Made by a program: the position numbers and the translations under genes. A stretch of DNA of 64,000 nucleotides from Bacteroidales bacterium (lineage in GTDB: Bacteria; Bacteroidota; Bacteroidia; Bacteroidales; M50B96): assembly GCA_021740905.1 (NCBI GenBank), contig JAIOYV010000024.1:1-64000 (forward strand), read 5' to 3'. Every line of letters begins with the position of its first letter. Position 1 is the stretch's first letter. Below are positions 7,779-31,990 of this stretch, piece after piece. The notes beneath the pieces are model-generated. The model was not told where the DNA came from. It was given only the letters and a program-made list of their open reading frames with translations, and did no database searches.

Positions 7779-9434
7779 ATGGGTGCTACGAATTGTCCCG
7801 AAACCCCGCGGCAAAAAATGATTGCGATGATGTATCTGGTGTTGACAGCACTATTGGCATTGAACGTATCACGCGAGATCATCGAAGCTTTCGTGCTGGT
7901 TGAGGGCGGATTAAATAAATCAATTGAAAATTTCAACGAAAAGAATAAATCCATTTACGATAGTTTTTCGCAGGCTGAATTGGAAAACCCTGATAAAGTT
8001 AAGCCTTGGCGGTTGAAAGCCGATGCAGTTAGAAATAGGACCAAAAGCATTAGCAACTACATTCAGGATTTAAAGATAGAAATTATTCAAAAGGCAGACG
8101 GGGAAGATGCCGTTGCTGTAAAAGGACGCGAAATTTATTCTGATTCCATCTTAAAGTCTGATAACCTCGACTATGGTGGGGAAGTCTTAATTGGTGCTGA
8201 ACACAATGGGAAAGGCTATGATTTAAAAGATTCTTTAATTGCGTTAAGAGAATTTCTGTCAGGATCTGCGATTGATCCGCCTCAGTCTCTTAAAGAATCG
8301 TTTAGGAAAATTTTAAACACTGATGATCCACCTAACATTGGGACTTCCGAGAAGAAAACGTGGGAAACCATGCGCTTTGACAACTTGCCTTTGATAGCTG
8401 TAATTACTATGCTATCGAAAATTCAAACCGACATTACAAATGTGGAATCCGATGCAATCAATCACTTATTTAAGCAAATTGGTATTCTTGATGTTAAAGT
8501 AAACAAGATAGATGCAGTTGTCCGGTCAAAATCAAGTTATATCTTTAAAGATGGCACCTACGAAGCCGAAGTGTTTTTGGCAGCATTTGATACTACGCAA
8601 ACACCTACAATTTATGTAGGCCGGGTAGATTCAACTGTTAACGATGCCGGTATTGTCGAATATTTTATGGCCGGCGAACTCGGAAAAGATTATGACACAT
8701 TGCATGTGGAAGATGGTGTCGGGAAATATTCAGCCGTTGGACATAGTCTTTCGCCAAGTGTAAAATGGGGTGGATTAATCGAACTTAAAACCCCATCGGG
8801 ATTAATTAACTATCCTTTCGAAGCTGACTATCAGGTTGGCGACGTGGGCTTAGTTGTGTCTCCAACTAAAATGAATGTGTTTTATATTGGAGTAGACAAC
8901 CCTGTTGATATTTCGGTACCTGGTGTTCCAAAAGAAAATATTGTGGCCACAATGACCAACGGAACAATAAGGGAAGACAAAGCAACTGGTGGTTGGATGG
9001 TTCGGCCTACAGCAGGAGATCTCACTGGAAAAAGGACCTCCATTTCAGTTAATGCAGAAATACATGGAAAAAAGAGAGAAATGGGTTCTGTCGCCTTCCG
9101 GGTAAAAACAGTACCAGATCCGGTTGCCAAAGTCGCTATGAGCAAAGGTGGGGTTCTGCAAAGATCTATGTTATTAGCCCAGACCGGGGTGTTTTGTGAA
9201 ATCGAAAACTTCGATTTTGAAATGCCGTTTAAAGTTACTTCATTTGATGTTACTGCAATTATCCAGGGATTTGAAGATGTCAAGTCATCAAATAGCAATA
9301 AATTTACAGAAGGGCAGTATGATTTGATAAAGAAACTTAGGAGAGGCGATAAAGTAAATTTTGAAAATATAAAAGCAAAAGGTGATGATGGCATTACCCG
9401 TCCTTTGCCTCCTATGATATTTAAGCTTCAATAA
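7779..9434 (+). CDS. gldM: GldM/PorM, T9SS periplasm-spanning motor subunit
   Basis: 551 residues. A single N-terminal membrane helix (MIAMMYLVLTALLALNVS, about residues 14-31) is preceded by PRQKM, in which Arg11 matches the conserved arginine known to face the GldL proton site. The remainder is periplasmic: a helical first domain and beta-rich Ig-like domains towards the C-terminus (for example VGDVGLVVSPTKMNVFYIGVDN). GldM transmits motion from GldL to the GldK/GldN ring. It lies 18 bases before gldN. Confidence 0.97.
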   Translation: MGATNCPETPRQKMIAMMYLVLTALLALNVSREIIEAFVLVEGGLNKSIENFNEKNKSIYDSFSQAELENPDKVKPWRLKADAVRNRTKSISNYIQDLKIEIIQKADGEDAVAVKGREIYSDSILKSDNLDYGGEVLIGAEHNGKGYDLKDSLIALREFLSGSAIDPPQSLKESFRKILNTDDPPNIGTSEKKTWETMRFDNLPLIAVITMLSKIQTDITNVESDAINHLFKQIGILDVKVNKIDAVVRSKSSYIFKDGTYEAEVFLAAFDTTQTPTIYVGRVDSTVNDAGIVEYFMAGELGKDYDTLHVEDGVGKYSAVGHSLSPSVKWGGLIELKTPSGLINYPFEADYQVGDVGLVVSPTKMNVFYIGVDNPVDISVPGVPKENIVATMTNGTIREDKATGGWMVRPTAGDLTGKRTSISVNAEIHGKKREMGSVAFRVKTVPDPVAKVAMSKGGVLQRSMLLAQTGVFCEIENFDFEMPFKVTSFDVTAIIQGFEDVKSSNSNKFTEGQYDLIKKLRRGDKVNFENIKAKGDDGITRPLPPMIFKLQ

Positions 9435-9452
9435 ACATAAACTTTATATGCT

Positions 9453-10349
9453 ATGAGAAGATTAGCAAGTCTTATTTTGATATGTGTTTTAGCGAGTTTT
9501 TTGGTTCCACAAGAAACTGATGCACAAGGTGTGTTGAACGGGATTTATGTAAAATACCGCGATCAACAGCGAAAACCAATTCCATACAAGCCTTTGCGAG
9601 AGGCAGATGTAATGTGGTCGAAATTTATTATGCGAAGAATTGATTTGCGTGAGAAATTGAACGAACCCCTTTACTATCCAACAAAACCAATTTTGGAGCG
9701 GATGAGTTTGATCGATCTGATGTTGCATGGCATTAAAAACGAAGGGTTGACTGCCTACGCTTCGGGCGATCCGGGTGAGGAATTTAATGTGCCAATGACC
9801 TGGAGAGAAATAGAGGAAAAATTCGATGTCAGAAATGATACTAGCCAGGTGATGGATGTGGAGACTGGAGAAATGATCGATAAAGTTATTACTAAAGATC
9901 TCAATAGCTTTGAAGTAAAACAATATTTGGTAAAAGAAATGTGGTATTTCGACAGGAAATATTCTACGCTTAATGTACGGATTATTGCTCTTAGCCCTAT
10001 CCGGGAATATAACAAAGAGATCACCGGAGATATGAGTGCCGAATCGATCGCCTTGGCCGAAGAATCTGCAGGCGAAGCCACACAAAGGCAATTGTTCTGG
10101 GTTAGTTTTGTGGAGTTCAGGCCTTTATTCGCCAACCACGAAGTAATGAATCCATACAATGATTCGGAACGTAGATCGTTCGATGATATTTTCTTCAAGC
10201 GGAAATTTGCAAGTTACATTGTTCAGGAGTCGAATATTTACGATAATCGGAATATTAATTCTTATTCCCTTGGACAAAATACCTTGCTCGAATCGGAAAG
10301 GATTAAGAATTGGGTATTCAACCTCGAACAGGATGTATGGGAGTATTAA
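9453..10349 (+). CDS. gldN: GldN/PorN, T9SS periplasmic ring protein
   Basis: 298 residues with a signal peptide (LASLILICVLASFLV) and the family sequence KPLREADVMWSKFIMRRIDLREK, followed by NEPLYYPT. It associates with GldK to form the periplasmic ring of the T9SS translocon. It is last gene of the operon; the perfect-stem terminator begins 17 bases after its stop codon. Confidence 0.96.
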   Translation: MRRLASLILICVLASFLVPQETDAQGVLNGIYVKYRDQQRKPIPYKPLREADVMWSKFIMRRIDLREKLNEPLYYPTKPILERMSLIDLMLHGIKNEGLTAYASGDPGEEFNVPMTWREIEEKFDVRNDTSQVMDVETGEMIDKVITKDLNSFEVKQYLVKEMWYFDRKYSTLNVRIIALSPIREYNKEITGDMSAESIALAEESAGEATQRQLFWVSFVEFRPLFANHEVMNPYNDSERRSFDDIFFKRKFASYIVQESNIYDNRNINSYSLGQNTLLESERIKNWVFNLEQDVWEY

Positions 10350-28625: not shown

Positions 28626-28656
28626 TGTTAAGACAATGTAAAGAAAGTTGAATAAG

Positions 28657-29061
28657 ATGAAATATGAAGAATTAACTCATAAAATTATTGGTTGCGCCAT
28701 GCGGGTCCACTCTGCATTGGGAAATGGTTTTCAGGAGGTAATTTACCAGAGAGCAATGCAAATTGAAATGGCAGATAGCGGAATCTCATTTTCCAGAGAA
28801 TATGAAATGCCTGTCTATTACAAAAATCAACAAATAGGAACACGCCGGGTTGATTTTCTGGTTGAGGAAAACATTTCGGTTGAACTAAAAGCAGTCATTC
28901 GATTAGATGATGTTCATCTTGCACAGGCGATAAATTACCTTGAAGCGTATGATTTGGAAGTTGGCTTGTTAATCAATTTCGGAGCAAAAAGCCTGGACTT
29001 TAAGCGGCTCAACAACAAAAAATTCAAACAAAAAAATCAAGGTAATCCATTAATCCCATAA
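28657..29061 (+). CDS. GxxExxY family protein
   Basis: 134 residues from the ATG at 28657 (a TTG three codons earlier is open too). It contains the eponymous motif GFQEVIY and the core VDFLVEENISVELKAV, where Asp, Glu and Lys have the spacing of a PD-(D/E)XK nuclease-like site, then INYLEAYDLEVGLLINFG. Function in the family is not established. Its GGATT-rich flanks suggest it moves as a small unit. Confidence 0.9.
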   Translation: MKYEELTHKIIGCAMRVHSALGNGFQEVIYQRAMQIEMADSGISFSREYEMPVYYKNQQIGTRRVDFLVEENISVELKAVIRLDDVHLAQAINYLEAYDLEVGLLINFGAKSLDFKRLNNKKFKQKNQGNPLIP

Positions 29062-29377
29062 ATCAAGGTTCTGACAATGGACTGCAATGCCGATTTGGGA
29101 CCCTTAATTCCATTCTGCACAATATGTTTCAAAACACATATTCTTAAAGAAACAAACTGTACTTTTACCTTAATAATTGACAGTAAGAAAAAGGAATTAC
29201 AAAGATGATAGGCGAAATATTCACTATGCTATTGCGTATATCGACCCATTTTGGGTATTTATTTACTATGGGTAGTGATGATTTTACGTTGGCATTCATT
29301 GCAAAAAAAATCCTCGTATACAACTAATTGATTAGAAATGATTTTATATCTTTGAAACTAATAAATTCAAAGTAAAT
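29062..29377. other. AT-rich gap before the Bro-N gene
   Basis: No gene, terminator or clear repeat was seen here. AT content rises compared with the galactose genes on the left. Confidence 0.4.
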
Positions 29378-30142
29378 ATGACAAAAGAATCCTCTATTAA
29401 ACTTTTTGAATCAAAACAAATTCGGGTACATTGGAATAATGAGAAAGAAAAATGGTATTTTTCGATTATTGATATTATTGAAACCCTCACTGGTAGTAAT
29501 AATCCAAGAAGGTATTGGAGCGACTTAAAAAGAAAATTATTTAAAGAGGGTTTTTCCCAGTTGTACGAAATTGTCGTACAACTGAAATTAGAATCATCTG
29601 ATGGTAAAAAATATATAACAGATTGTGCTGATACAGAGGGTTTATTAAGAATTATTCAATCAATTCCATCGCCAAAAGCAGAGCCATTTAAAGTTTGGTT
29701 AGCAAAAGTTGGATACGAACGGATTGAAGAGACAGAAGACCCGGAAAAAGCTTTTGATAGGGCAATGGAAACATATTTAAAAAAAGGATATTCAACAAAT
29801 TGGATTAATCAGAGAATCAAAAGCATTGAAGTTAGAAAAGAATTAACTGATGAGTGGGAATCAAGAGGAGTAAAAAAAGGCATCGAATATGCAATATTGA
29901 CAGACGAAATTTCAAAAGCATGGGCTGGATTTACAACAAAGGAATATAGAAATTTTAAAAATCTTAAAAAAGAAAATCTGAGAGATAATATGACTAATCT
30001 TGAGTTAGTTTTAAATATGCTTGCAGAAACATCAACAACTGAATTGTCAAAGAAAAAAAAGCCAAAAACATTAATTGAAAACAAAATTATAGCCAAAAAA
30101 GGTGGTTCCGTTGCTGGAAATGCAAGAAAAGATTTAGAATAA
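29378..30142 (+). CDS. Bro-N domain protein (phage antirepressor type)
   Basis: 254 residues. The N-terminal 110 residues match Bro-N/antirepressor-like domains: SKQIRVHWNNEKEKWYFSII, DIIETLTGSNNPRRYWSDLK, then LLRIIQSIPSPKAEPFKVWL. The C-terminal half contains SIEVRKELTDEWESRGVKKG, as in chromosomal DinD/Bro-like proteins, and a Lys-rich end. DNA binding is expected; the biological role is unknown. Codons are strongly A/T-biased compared with sglT or galM, a sign of transfer. It is followed by palindromic elements. Confidence 0.85.
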   Translation: MTKESSIKLFESKQIRVHWNNEKEKWYFSIIDIIETLTGSNNPRRYWSDLKRKLFKEGFSQLYEIVVQLKLESSDGKKYITDCADTEGLLRIIQSIPSPKAEPFKVWLAKVGYERIEETEDPEKAFDRAMETYLKKGYSTNWINQRIKSIEVRKELTDEWESRGVKKGIEYAILTDEISKAWAGFTTKEYRNFKNLKKENLRDNMTNLELVLNMLAETSTTELSKKKKPKTLIENKIIAKKGGSVAGNARKDLE

Positions 30143-30240
30143 AATTAGGACAAAGTGTGATTAGCCCTTTAAATGCAAGAGAGTTAGGGAAAAATGATGA
30201 TAAGTACCTTGGAAAAAATGAAGAGTAAGCAACGAAATAC

Positions 30241-30375
30241 CAACAGCGCATTATAAATCATGGCGGGGCTTTCAGGGGTTTTTAGCAGCAGTAACCAGCA
30301 GCATTTTAACGTGTGTGCGGAGAAAGTGAGAAGCACGCAGTCCGCCACAATTCATATGCGCAAATCGTTGCAGCC
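30241..30375. repeat. Long imperfect palindrome, attC-like
   Basis: The left arm CAACAGCGCATTATAAATC-ATGGCGG (30241-30266) faces a right arm reading CCGCC...ATGCGC...GTTG (30346-30370). The 80-base middle carries AGCAGCAGTAACCAGCAGC. The outer CAAC/GTTG ends around a large imperfect stem resemble integron attC recombination sites. No integrase gene is in the window. Confidence 0.45.
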
Positions 30376-30439
30376 TATTTTTTTTTTTAACGAGTCGGGC
30401 AGCCTAGGAACAGTTCTTTGAAAATGGTTATCTTTGAAA

Positions 30440-30530
30440 GCGCAACGTAGAAGAACATGAAATACGAACTTAAAAACAGTGGAGCGGGTACATGGGCTCC
30501 TGGCATTAGCCCACCCGTTGTGCGTCATTA
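30440..30530. repeat. Second attC-like palindrome
   Basis: The outer GCGCAACG (30440-30447) is complementary to CGTTGTGCG (30517-30525) with one mismatch; the inner GCGGGTACATGGGC and GCCCACCCG form a stem. It lies just upstream of the MORN/TonB gene. Confidence 0.45.
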
Positions 30531-30651
30531 ACAGAATGAAAATTACTGATTGAGAAATGGTAATACCTTGTTTTTTTTGCTTTATCAAAACCTCGTTTTT
30601 GTCAATAATCAAACACAGTTATAGCTATACAAAATGCTAAAAAAAAATATT

Positions 30652-31824
30652 ATGAAATTAACCTGTTTAAGTATTATTATTCTATTATCTGTTCAATCGT
30701 TTTCTCAGTCTGTTGTAAAGCTTTATTATAATGATGATTGGGAATTAACTGATTCATTGCATTCAAAGTACTATAGAATAGTTGGAATTGATGAAAAGGA
30801 TATGGACTTCGTGGGAGAGTTTAAAGATTACAACAATGATAACCAATTATTAATGAAAGGTTTCTATTCCAATAATAAAAAAGATGGTGCCTTCGAAAGT
30901 TATTACCCAAATGGCAAAATAAAATCTAAAGGTCGATATACTGTCAATAACAGAAATAAACAATGGGAGTATTATTACGATAATGGACAATTAAAATATA
31001 TTGTGACTTTTAGAGCCGGAAATGAATTATTAAATTTTAATTATAATTTTTTAGTCAGTGAAGCCTTTGATAAAGAAGGAAATAAAGTTATTGAAAACGG
31101 AACAGGAATTTTTAAATATCAATATTCTGAAAAAGGAACTCTTCATTATTACGAAGGTAATATGTCTAATATGATATCTGAAGCGGTGCTAGATTTAATT
31201 ACAATTGAAGGGAAATTTATTAAAGGGAAAAAAGAAGGAACTTGGTCTATTTATTACGATAAACAGAAATTCTTCAACAAAGATGAATTTTTTGAGGCTG
31301 ATTCATTTAAATACGGAATCGTAAGGTATCAAGATTACATAAAATATGGTAGAAGCGAGGAGTACAATACAGAAAGAATAGAAAAATTACCTGATGAGTA
31401 TGAAATAATTTTTAAGCGGACAGAATCAAAACGTCTTGACACAACAGTTTTCGATAATAACATAAGACATAGTGACATTGATATCCTATTAACTAAACTG
31501 ACCGGGAAAGTATTCAAAATTAAAAATAGAAATGCTGGTTATTCTGAAGGAGATTATGAGTTGCAGGAATTACTTGCCAGAAATATACGTTACCCAGTAG
31601 ATGCCAGAATCAATGGAATTGAAGGGACAGTGTATTTTGAATTAATAATCTCTTCCAAAGGAGAGGTAATTAGCATTACAAAAATGAACTCCATTGACAA
31701 ATCTATTGATGATGAAGCTTTAAGAGTTATTTCAGAGATTAAAAGTGGTTGGTTACCTACTCTCAGAGATGGAAAAGAAGTTGCTTCAAAAGTATTAATA
31801 CCTGTTGACTTTAGATTAGAATAA
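30652..31824 (+). CDS. Secreted MORN-repeat protein with TonB C-terminal domain
   Basis: 390 residues from the ATG at 30652, where a signal peptide starts (LTCLSIIILLSVQSFSQ). The middle holds YwqK-type MORN repeats: KDGAFESYYPNGKIKSKGRY, NKQWEYYYDNGQLKYIVTF, and a later copy near GKKEGTWSIYYDKQ. The last 95 residues are a TonB C-terminal domain (IRYPVDARINGIEGTVYFE, SIDDEALRVISEIKSGW). A periplasmic or surface role is inferred. Base composition is AT-rich like the Bro-N gene, and palindromes lie on both sides. Confidence 0.85.
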   Translation: MKLTCLSIIILLSVQSFSQSVVKLYYNDDWELTDSLHSKYYRIVGIDEKDMDFVGEFKDYNNDNQLLMKGFYSNNKKDGAFESYYPNGKIKSKGRYTVNNRNKQWEYYYDNGQLKYIVTFRAGNELLNFNYNFLVSEAFDKEGNKVIENGTGIFKYQYSEKGTLHYYEGNMSNMISEAVLDLITIEGKFIKGKKEGTWSIYYDKQKFFNKDEFFEADSFKYGIVRYQDYIKYGRSEEYNTERIEKLPDEYEIIFKRTESKRLDTTVFDNNIRHSDIDILLTKLTGKVFKIKNRNAGYSEGDYELQELLARNIRYPVDARINGIEGTVYFELIISSKGEVISITKMNSIDKSIDDEALRVISEIKSGWLPTLRDGKEVASKVLIPVDFRLE

Positions 31825-31924
31825 ATATTATAATTTCTGCAACTTACTTGGCCTCTAATGTTACCAATCCTTTTGAATCAAAACGCATAACTAGCGAGGT
31901 TTCGAATTAATGCAAGAATAACGA

Positions 31925-31990
31925 ACGCACAACAAACTAGCCTAGCCAATGGCGAAAAACACCGCTACTTGGCCATCCATAACACGCATT
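31925..31990. repeat. Third attC-like palindrome, after the MORN/TonB gene
   Basis: ACGCACAAC (31926-31934) and TAACACGC (31980-31987) flank a hairpin made of TAGCCAATGGCG and CGCTACTTGGCCA. The GCACAAC end matches the complement of GTTGTGC in the element at 30440, so the two look related and bracket the gene. Confidence 0.45.

Follow-up and report, generated by a model that had tools for sequence, protein, structure and literature searches.

A probable three-cassette integron-type array in a Bacteroidales genome and a recombinase family lacking the IntI insertion that may move such cassettes

In class 1 integrons and the chromosomal integrons of Vibrio, a cassette consists of a gene followed by a hairpin site with a G|TT / AAC core, the R'' box of which is complementary to the cassette start; such cassettes form co-oriented arrays that include gene-less members, and single dispersed cassettes are possible. 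The integron mechanism predicts that R'' will be complementary to the first bases of its own cassette, because the R' box of the circular cassette consists of those bases. In inverted integrons, for example those of Treponema, attI lies on the 3' side of an intI gene that encodes a true IntI with its insertion. This insertion has been described as essential for integron function (PMC8138268), and a standard survey found almost no integrons in the Bacteroidetes, with one complete example, in Salinibacter (PMC9024848). In the rAID (recombinase-associated acquired interbacterial defence) arrays of gut Bacteroidales, a tyrosine recombinase heads co-oriented short genes with conserved intergenic motifs, and how these arrays are constructed was termed unresolved by the authors of a 2025 study (PMC12247911). 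The arrays described below share features with each of these systems and differ from each of them.

The locus lies in a window of 64,000 nucleotides, the whole stretch of DNA analysed, from a Bacteroidales genome; all features given here are on its forward strand. It is highly probable that positions 29288-31986, between the sglT/PDDEXK_3 genes and galM, are a short integron-type cassette array, a reading that is held jointly with mobilization by a recombinase other than IntI. The original prediction was of an isolated single cassette, and this has been replaced by a block of probably three: a Bro-N cassette, a gene-less cassette and a MORN/TonB cassette. The last of these is firm. It extends from G|TTGTGCGT to AACACG|CATTAC (30517..31986) and carries a MORN_2/TonB_C gene (30634..31824; 396 aa, signal-peptide-like N-terminus, 29% G+C, domains assigned by Pfam) followed by attC3, termed the type A site (31925..31986), with R'' ACGCACAAC at 31925-31933, a central hairpin TAGCCAATGGCG..CGCTACTTGGCCA and the end AACACG. 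The suggestion that the ends of this cassette are related proved correct to the base, as GTTGTGCGT (30517-30525) is the exact reverse complement of ACGCACAAC, a 9-nt match between start and R''. The right junction of the block is G|CA, not G|TT, and attC3 folds equally on both strands.

The other two cassettes are proposed from weaker signatures. Cassette 1 would run from G|TTGGCATTC to the G of attC1 (29288..30367), enclosing a Bro-N domain gene (29378..30142; 254 aa, 30% G+C, Pfam PF02498, 3e-10) and attC1 itself (30236..30367), a long hairpin with R'' AATACCAAC (30236-30244) and R' CG|TTGCAGCC; its start, GTTGGCATTC, agrees with the reverse complement of R'', GTTGGTATTT, at 8 of 10 bases. 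The probable gene-less cassette 2 (30367..30517) would end in attC2, with R'' AAGCGCAAC at 30438-30446 and R' CG|TTGTGCGT, and its complementarity between start and R'' is weak, at 5 contiguous bases only. The three palindromes that had been noticed around the MORN/TonB gene, at 30241, 30440 and 31925, are present and refold as 30236-30367, 30438-30517 and 31925-31986. Of the long, imperfect stems claimed for them, the first is indeed long and strong, the third is imperfect but short and the second is a weaker hairpin. Both genes are AT-rich, as had been stated (G+C 0.305 for Bro-N and 0.291 for MORN/TonB, against 0.405 for the window), and the noted lack of an integrase in the window extends to the whole contig, on which no integrase match was found, with no recombinase adjacent to the block. 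Just 5' of the block is a PDDEXK_3 (GxxExxY-type) gene (28648-29061), a 68% identical DNA copy of which is found near a recombinase remnant (L122) in G087, a genome from another family of the same order. A second Bro-N gene, with DNA 68% identical to that of the window, is located near a copy of the dispersed repeat described below (L114 4650-5214, G000:C79).

The ~60-bp site that closes the MORN/TonB cassette (31925-31986) is dispersed in this genome. A search for the same ends beside unrelated genes had been proposed as a test, which the reading survives: at least eight further, unrelated genes in this genome have the site next to them (9-10 places in all). When the block was searched against the genome, its 3' end was recovered in five other places at 84-90% identity. 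A covariance model of the type A site (R1), built from nine copies and searched in 393 genomes of the order, gave 9 hits in this genome and a further 2 in G087, where the site falls within an array, and no other among the 393; seven of the nine places and both G087 copies were already in the model, so that the new finds are those on contigs C7 and C142. Window attC3 scores 76 bits. Type A copies are nearly always found 0-10 bp past a different small gene and in the same orientation, and the stop codon precedes the last base of the site by 46-66 nt in seven copies; for the window copy this distance is 162. As read from the sequence, the preceding genes are unrelated and encode short lipoprotein- or signal-peptide-like proteins, a repeat protein and an antitoxin-like helix-turn-helix protein; Pfam, run on one protein beside a dispersed copy, gave no match. 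Two type A sites at L053 ~8800-10100 (G000:C65) flank an antitoxin-like cassette plus a truncated duplicate of the next, 164-aa gene. A scan of 85,000 species genomes and of viral contigs with the type A core pattern gave chance matches only, or none, phage and plasmid collections held no type A match, and Rfam had no match to the sites.

The outer bases of the type A site vary among copies and are complementary to the start of their own unit wherever that start could be located. The matching starts are GTTGTGCGT in the window, GTTATGGGC on C93, GTTACCAAC on C46 and GTTGCCAG on C147, with matches of 9, 9, 9 and 8 nt respectively; an additional unit on C147, with another type of site, reads GTTGGCATTA against TAATGCCAAC. 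The signature is exact (8-9 nt) in four of the seven copies tested (permutation p = 4/5040, seven copies) and absent in the other three (C65a, C65b and C46b). Since the 3' palindrome recurs at 84-90% identity and swapped partners match at 6 nt at most as against 9, 9, 9 and 8, the palindrome copies are more than chance; variation among them is too small for covariation testing. A dispersed conserved site, the order of gene then site and the complementarity of start and R'' can thus be read from the DNA directly. Foldable palindromes just past stop codons, dispersed within one genome, might also be transcription terminators or REP-like repeats that chance to follow genes, which is very improbable: neither the exact complementarity between a site and the start of its own unit, nor chains of up to five units, nor the split repeat on C46 would be explained, and no T-tract follows the stem.

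That split repeat bears on how cassettes enter new sites. On C46 a dispersed repeat is divided by a cassette precisely at A|GTT. Because unsplit copies on C20 and C51, which read GGTAGTTATCCAC, supply the sequence of the empty site, it can be seen that filled and unsplit sites differ by no target duplication. The cassette ends are inverted repeats of one another, as would be expected of a MITE- or IS-like transposable element, but the absence of target duplication on C46, of any transposase and of a shared 5' end speaks against such an element, as does the pattern of an inverted repeat that varies among copies around a conserved internal site, the reverse of a transposon, and this explanation too is very improbable. 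The preferred reading remains that of integron-type cassettes. An attI- or attG-like copy of the same dispersed repeat lies directly 5' of the window block (29207..29284), and cassettes at C147, C17 and C46 likewise have related copies before them. The repeat, AAATATTCACTATGCTATTGCGTATATCGACCC..GGGTA, occurs in the window (29207-29284) and on C17, C147, C20, C46, C51, C79 and C116, and on C116 and C48 partial copies in inverted orientation follow recombinase fragments at ~120-180 bp on the 3' side; the repeat may be a decayed attI.

The cassettes could have come from a canonical IntI integron of another bacterium and been inserted at attG-like secondary sites, and the G|TT/AAC core, the complementarity of R'' and start and the order of gene then attC are identical in such integrons. 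Canonical IntI genes occur in 5 of the 393 genomes of the order, and a single clear signature was seen at their loci on the 5' side, where arrays would be expected. As a cassette source these were rejected, as no type A site adjoins any of the five. This genome has no TIGR02249 (IntI) match over 265 bits and G087 likewise none over the curated cut-off, and type A sites share arrays with site types found directly behind a recombinase family that is not IntI. An origin in a canonical integron is accordingly unlikely. The original proposal that the locus is integron-like is supported, as the complementarity of cassette start and R'' typical of integron cassettes is present; it is not a canonical IntI integron, and the recombinase is likely to belong to another family, encoded elsewhere in the genome.

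That family is represented in G087 by an intact 389-residue recombinase frame on contig C8, followed after a spacer of ~92 bases by two consecutive cassettes with perfect 9- and 10-base matches of start and R''. The same arrangement of recombinase then cassette is found on G087 contigs C248, C21 and C193, with intact or truncated recombinase genes, and on C52 of the genome studied here, which has one intact family recombinase (that on C52) plus fragments. The C52 cassette next to the recombinase codes for two proteins, one like an adenine-specific DNA methyltransferase and the other without NCBIfam match. With the C8 protein as query (E <= 1e-60), 111 of the order's 393 genomes gave a family match, as did 84 in a set of 395 drawn from the whole phylum. 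Two conserved motifs are separated by 64-67 residues in 69 of 70 measured members; in three canonical IntI from the order the spacing is 106-107, and the IntI insertion is therefore absent from the family. The best family match is XerA/XerC/XerD (NCBIfam NF040815; 216 bits, just below the cut-off of 220), to which the Bacteroidota family adds an N-terminal domain, an extension of ~90 residues, and adjacent cassette arrays. In a tree, IntI was separated with full support, and the family was not cleanly shown as one clade because of a long-branch row. Several C-terminal recombinase fragments are present within the single genome G087 (L119, L121, L123, L124 and L125), and on C248, C21 and C193 a cassette start with matching R'' comes within ~55-111 bases of the fragment, as though attI, together with the gene's 3' end, had been duplicated to several places. 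The window is linked to the family through shared arrays: type A sites occur alongside type B sites in an array on C147 and alongside type C sites in one on G087 C32, and the cassettes immediately behind the family recombinases of C8 and C132 terminate in sites of these two other types.

Arrays adjoining the family are common. Testable loci, which were those on long enough contigs and not a random sample, numbered 49 (at least 500 bases downstream, with the chain required to begin within 300 bases of the stop codon), and in 32 of them a signature chain follows the 3' end of the recombinase gene directly. Of these chains, 24 comprise at least two cassettes in succession and the longest has five, although some later links in the longer chains are only 8-base matches and possibly chance. 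Composition shuffles gave a chain in 13% and two or more cassettes in 2.6%; 17 of the 49 loci have no chain. Arrays directly 3' of the family are in this way a matter of observation. In many loci the sequence preceding the first cassette approximates TATAARYRA|GTT, and the longest ORF is co-oriented in 59 of the 64 cassettes that have an ORF. Contig breaks are far commoner on the 3' side of the recombinase (34/61 and 17/40) than on the 5' side (7/56 and 4/40), as would follow from arrays being difficult to assemble. Among 42 sites, hairpin z fell below -2 in 22 on the bottom strand and 16 on the top, and the more stable strand was the bottom in 25 and the top in 15, so that hairpin excess and strand bias are both moderate. 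At L166 (G216:C7) a class D beta-lactamase (NF012161, 273 bits, cut-off 250) is the first cassette, 133-981 bases past the recombinase stop, followed by what by eye is an ABC-F-like protein. At L118 (G087:C132) the recombinase is followed by a three-gene unit (by eye HNH-like, a small ORF and DUF2326/ABC-3C-like) with a type C site at its end, which may be a defence cassette.

These arrays differ from class 1 and Vibrio integrons in that the recombinase lacks the IntI insertion and attI is at the 3' end of its gene, and in sites that keep the AAC/GTT core with R boxes looser than RYYYAAC/GTTRRRY and have no Rfam match. In inverted integrons too the array lies 3' of the recombinase gene, and it is again the absent insertion that sets the family apart. 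An attI with inserted cassettes next to the recombinase is seen for the family on that side, including on C52, and not at the window. As we envisage it, a cassette would be a gene, or none, plus a hairpin attC with an R'' (..AAC) complementary to the bases that open the same cassette (G|TT..). The folded attC would be recognised, probably as the bottom strand, by a tyrosine recombinase that would excise the cassette as a circle, which would then be inserted between G and TT of another attC, an attI or a similar genomic site. The enzyme would most likely be a member of the Bacteroidota family with the N-terminal extension and without the IntI insertion, whose predicted attI follows the 3' end of the recombinase gene at a distance of ~25-230 bp, and this family rather than a lost IntI would have moved the window cassettes. 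One intact recombinase gene, on C52 with its adjoining methyltransferase cassette, is present beside fragments in the genome, so that the window block would have been placed in trans, as might the other single cassettes.

Homologues of the family recombinase are also encoded in plasmid records of Parabacteroides distasonis, Bacteroides ovatus and Phocaeicola massiliensis, and in the first two SMI1/KNR4 and T6SS immunity genes lie behind it. The P. distasonis and B. ovatus arrays were missed by a search for GTT only; with the core relaxed to (G/A)|TT, a choice made after the gut sequences had been seen, the arrays of the three plasmid records gave unbroken runs of 8, 7 and 6 units in which start and R'' are complementary, where shuffles reached no more than 5, 4 and 4. 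Plasmids of Persicobacter and C. oryzae gave no convincing array with the relaxed core. The original rAID paper of 2019 may already have noted a resemblance to integrons. The recombinases of the gut and environmental arrays are homologous (42-48% identity), and the two differ in core, A|TT in rAID and G|TT in the environmental arrays, and in cargo, T6SS immunity genes in the former and varied genes in the latter. The P. distasonis and B. ovatus arrays fit the published rAID definition, its G+C criterion aside, a definition that makes no mention of cassettes, attC or integrons (PMC12247911). A recombinase upstream of at least two co-directional genes, as that definition has it with G+C again aside, is found in related arrays elsewhere; the window block has no recombinase upstream, and its cargo is Bro-N and MORN_2/TonB_C, not orphan T6SS immunity genes.

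Judged from sequence, it is likely that the Bacteroidota possess a widespread integron class of their own, with a recombinase that lacks the IntI insertion and an attI on its 3' side, of which the gut rAID arrays would be one specialised branch. About a quarter of the sampled genomes in one order hold members of a recombinase family that heads cassette arrays without this insertion, and a second recombinase lineage may thus perform integron-style recombination. For the rAID arrays of gut Bacteroides this offers a concrete, testable mechanism for the gain and loss of immunity genes; if it is true, orphan immunity genes would be acquired as cassettes.
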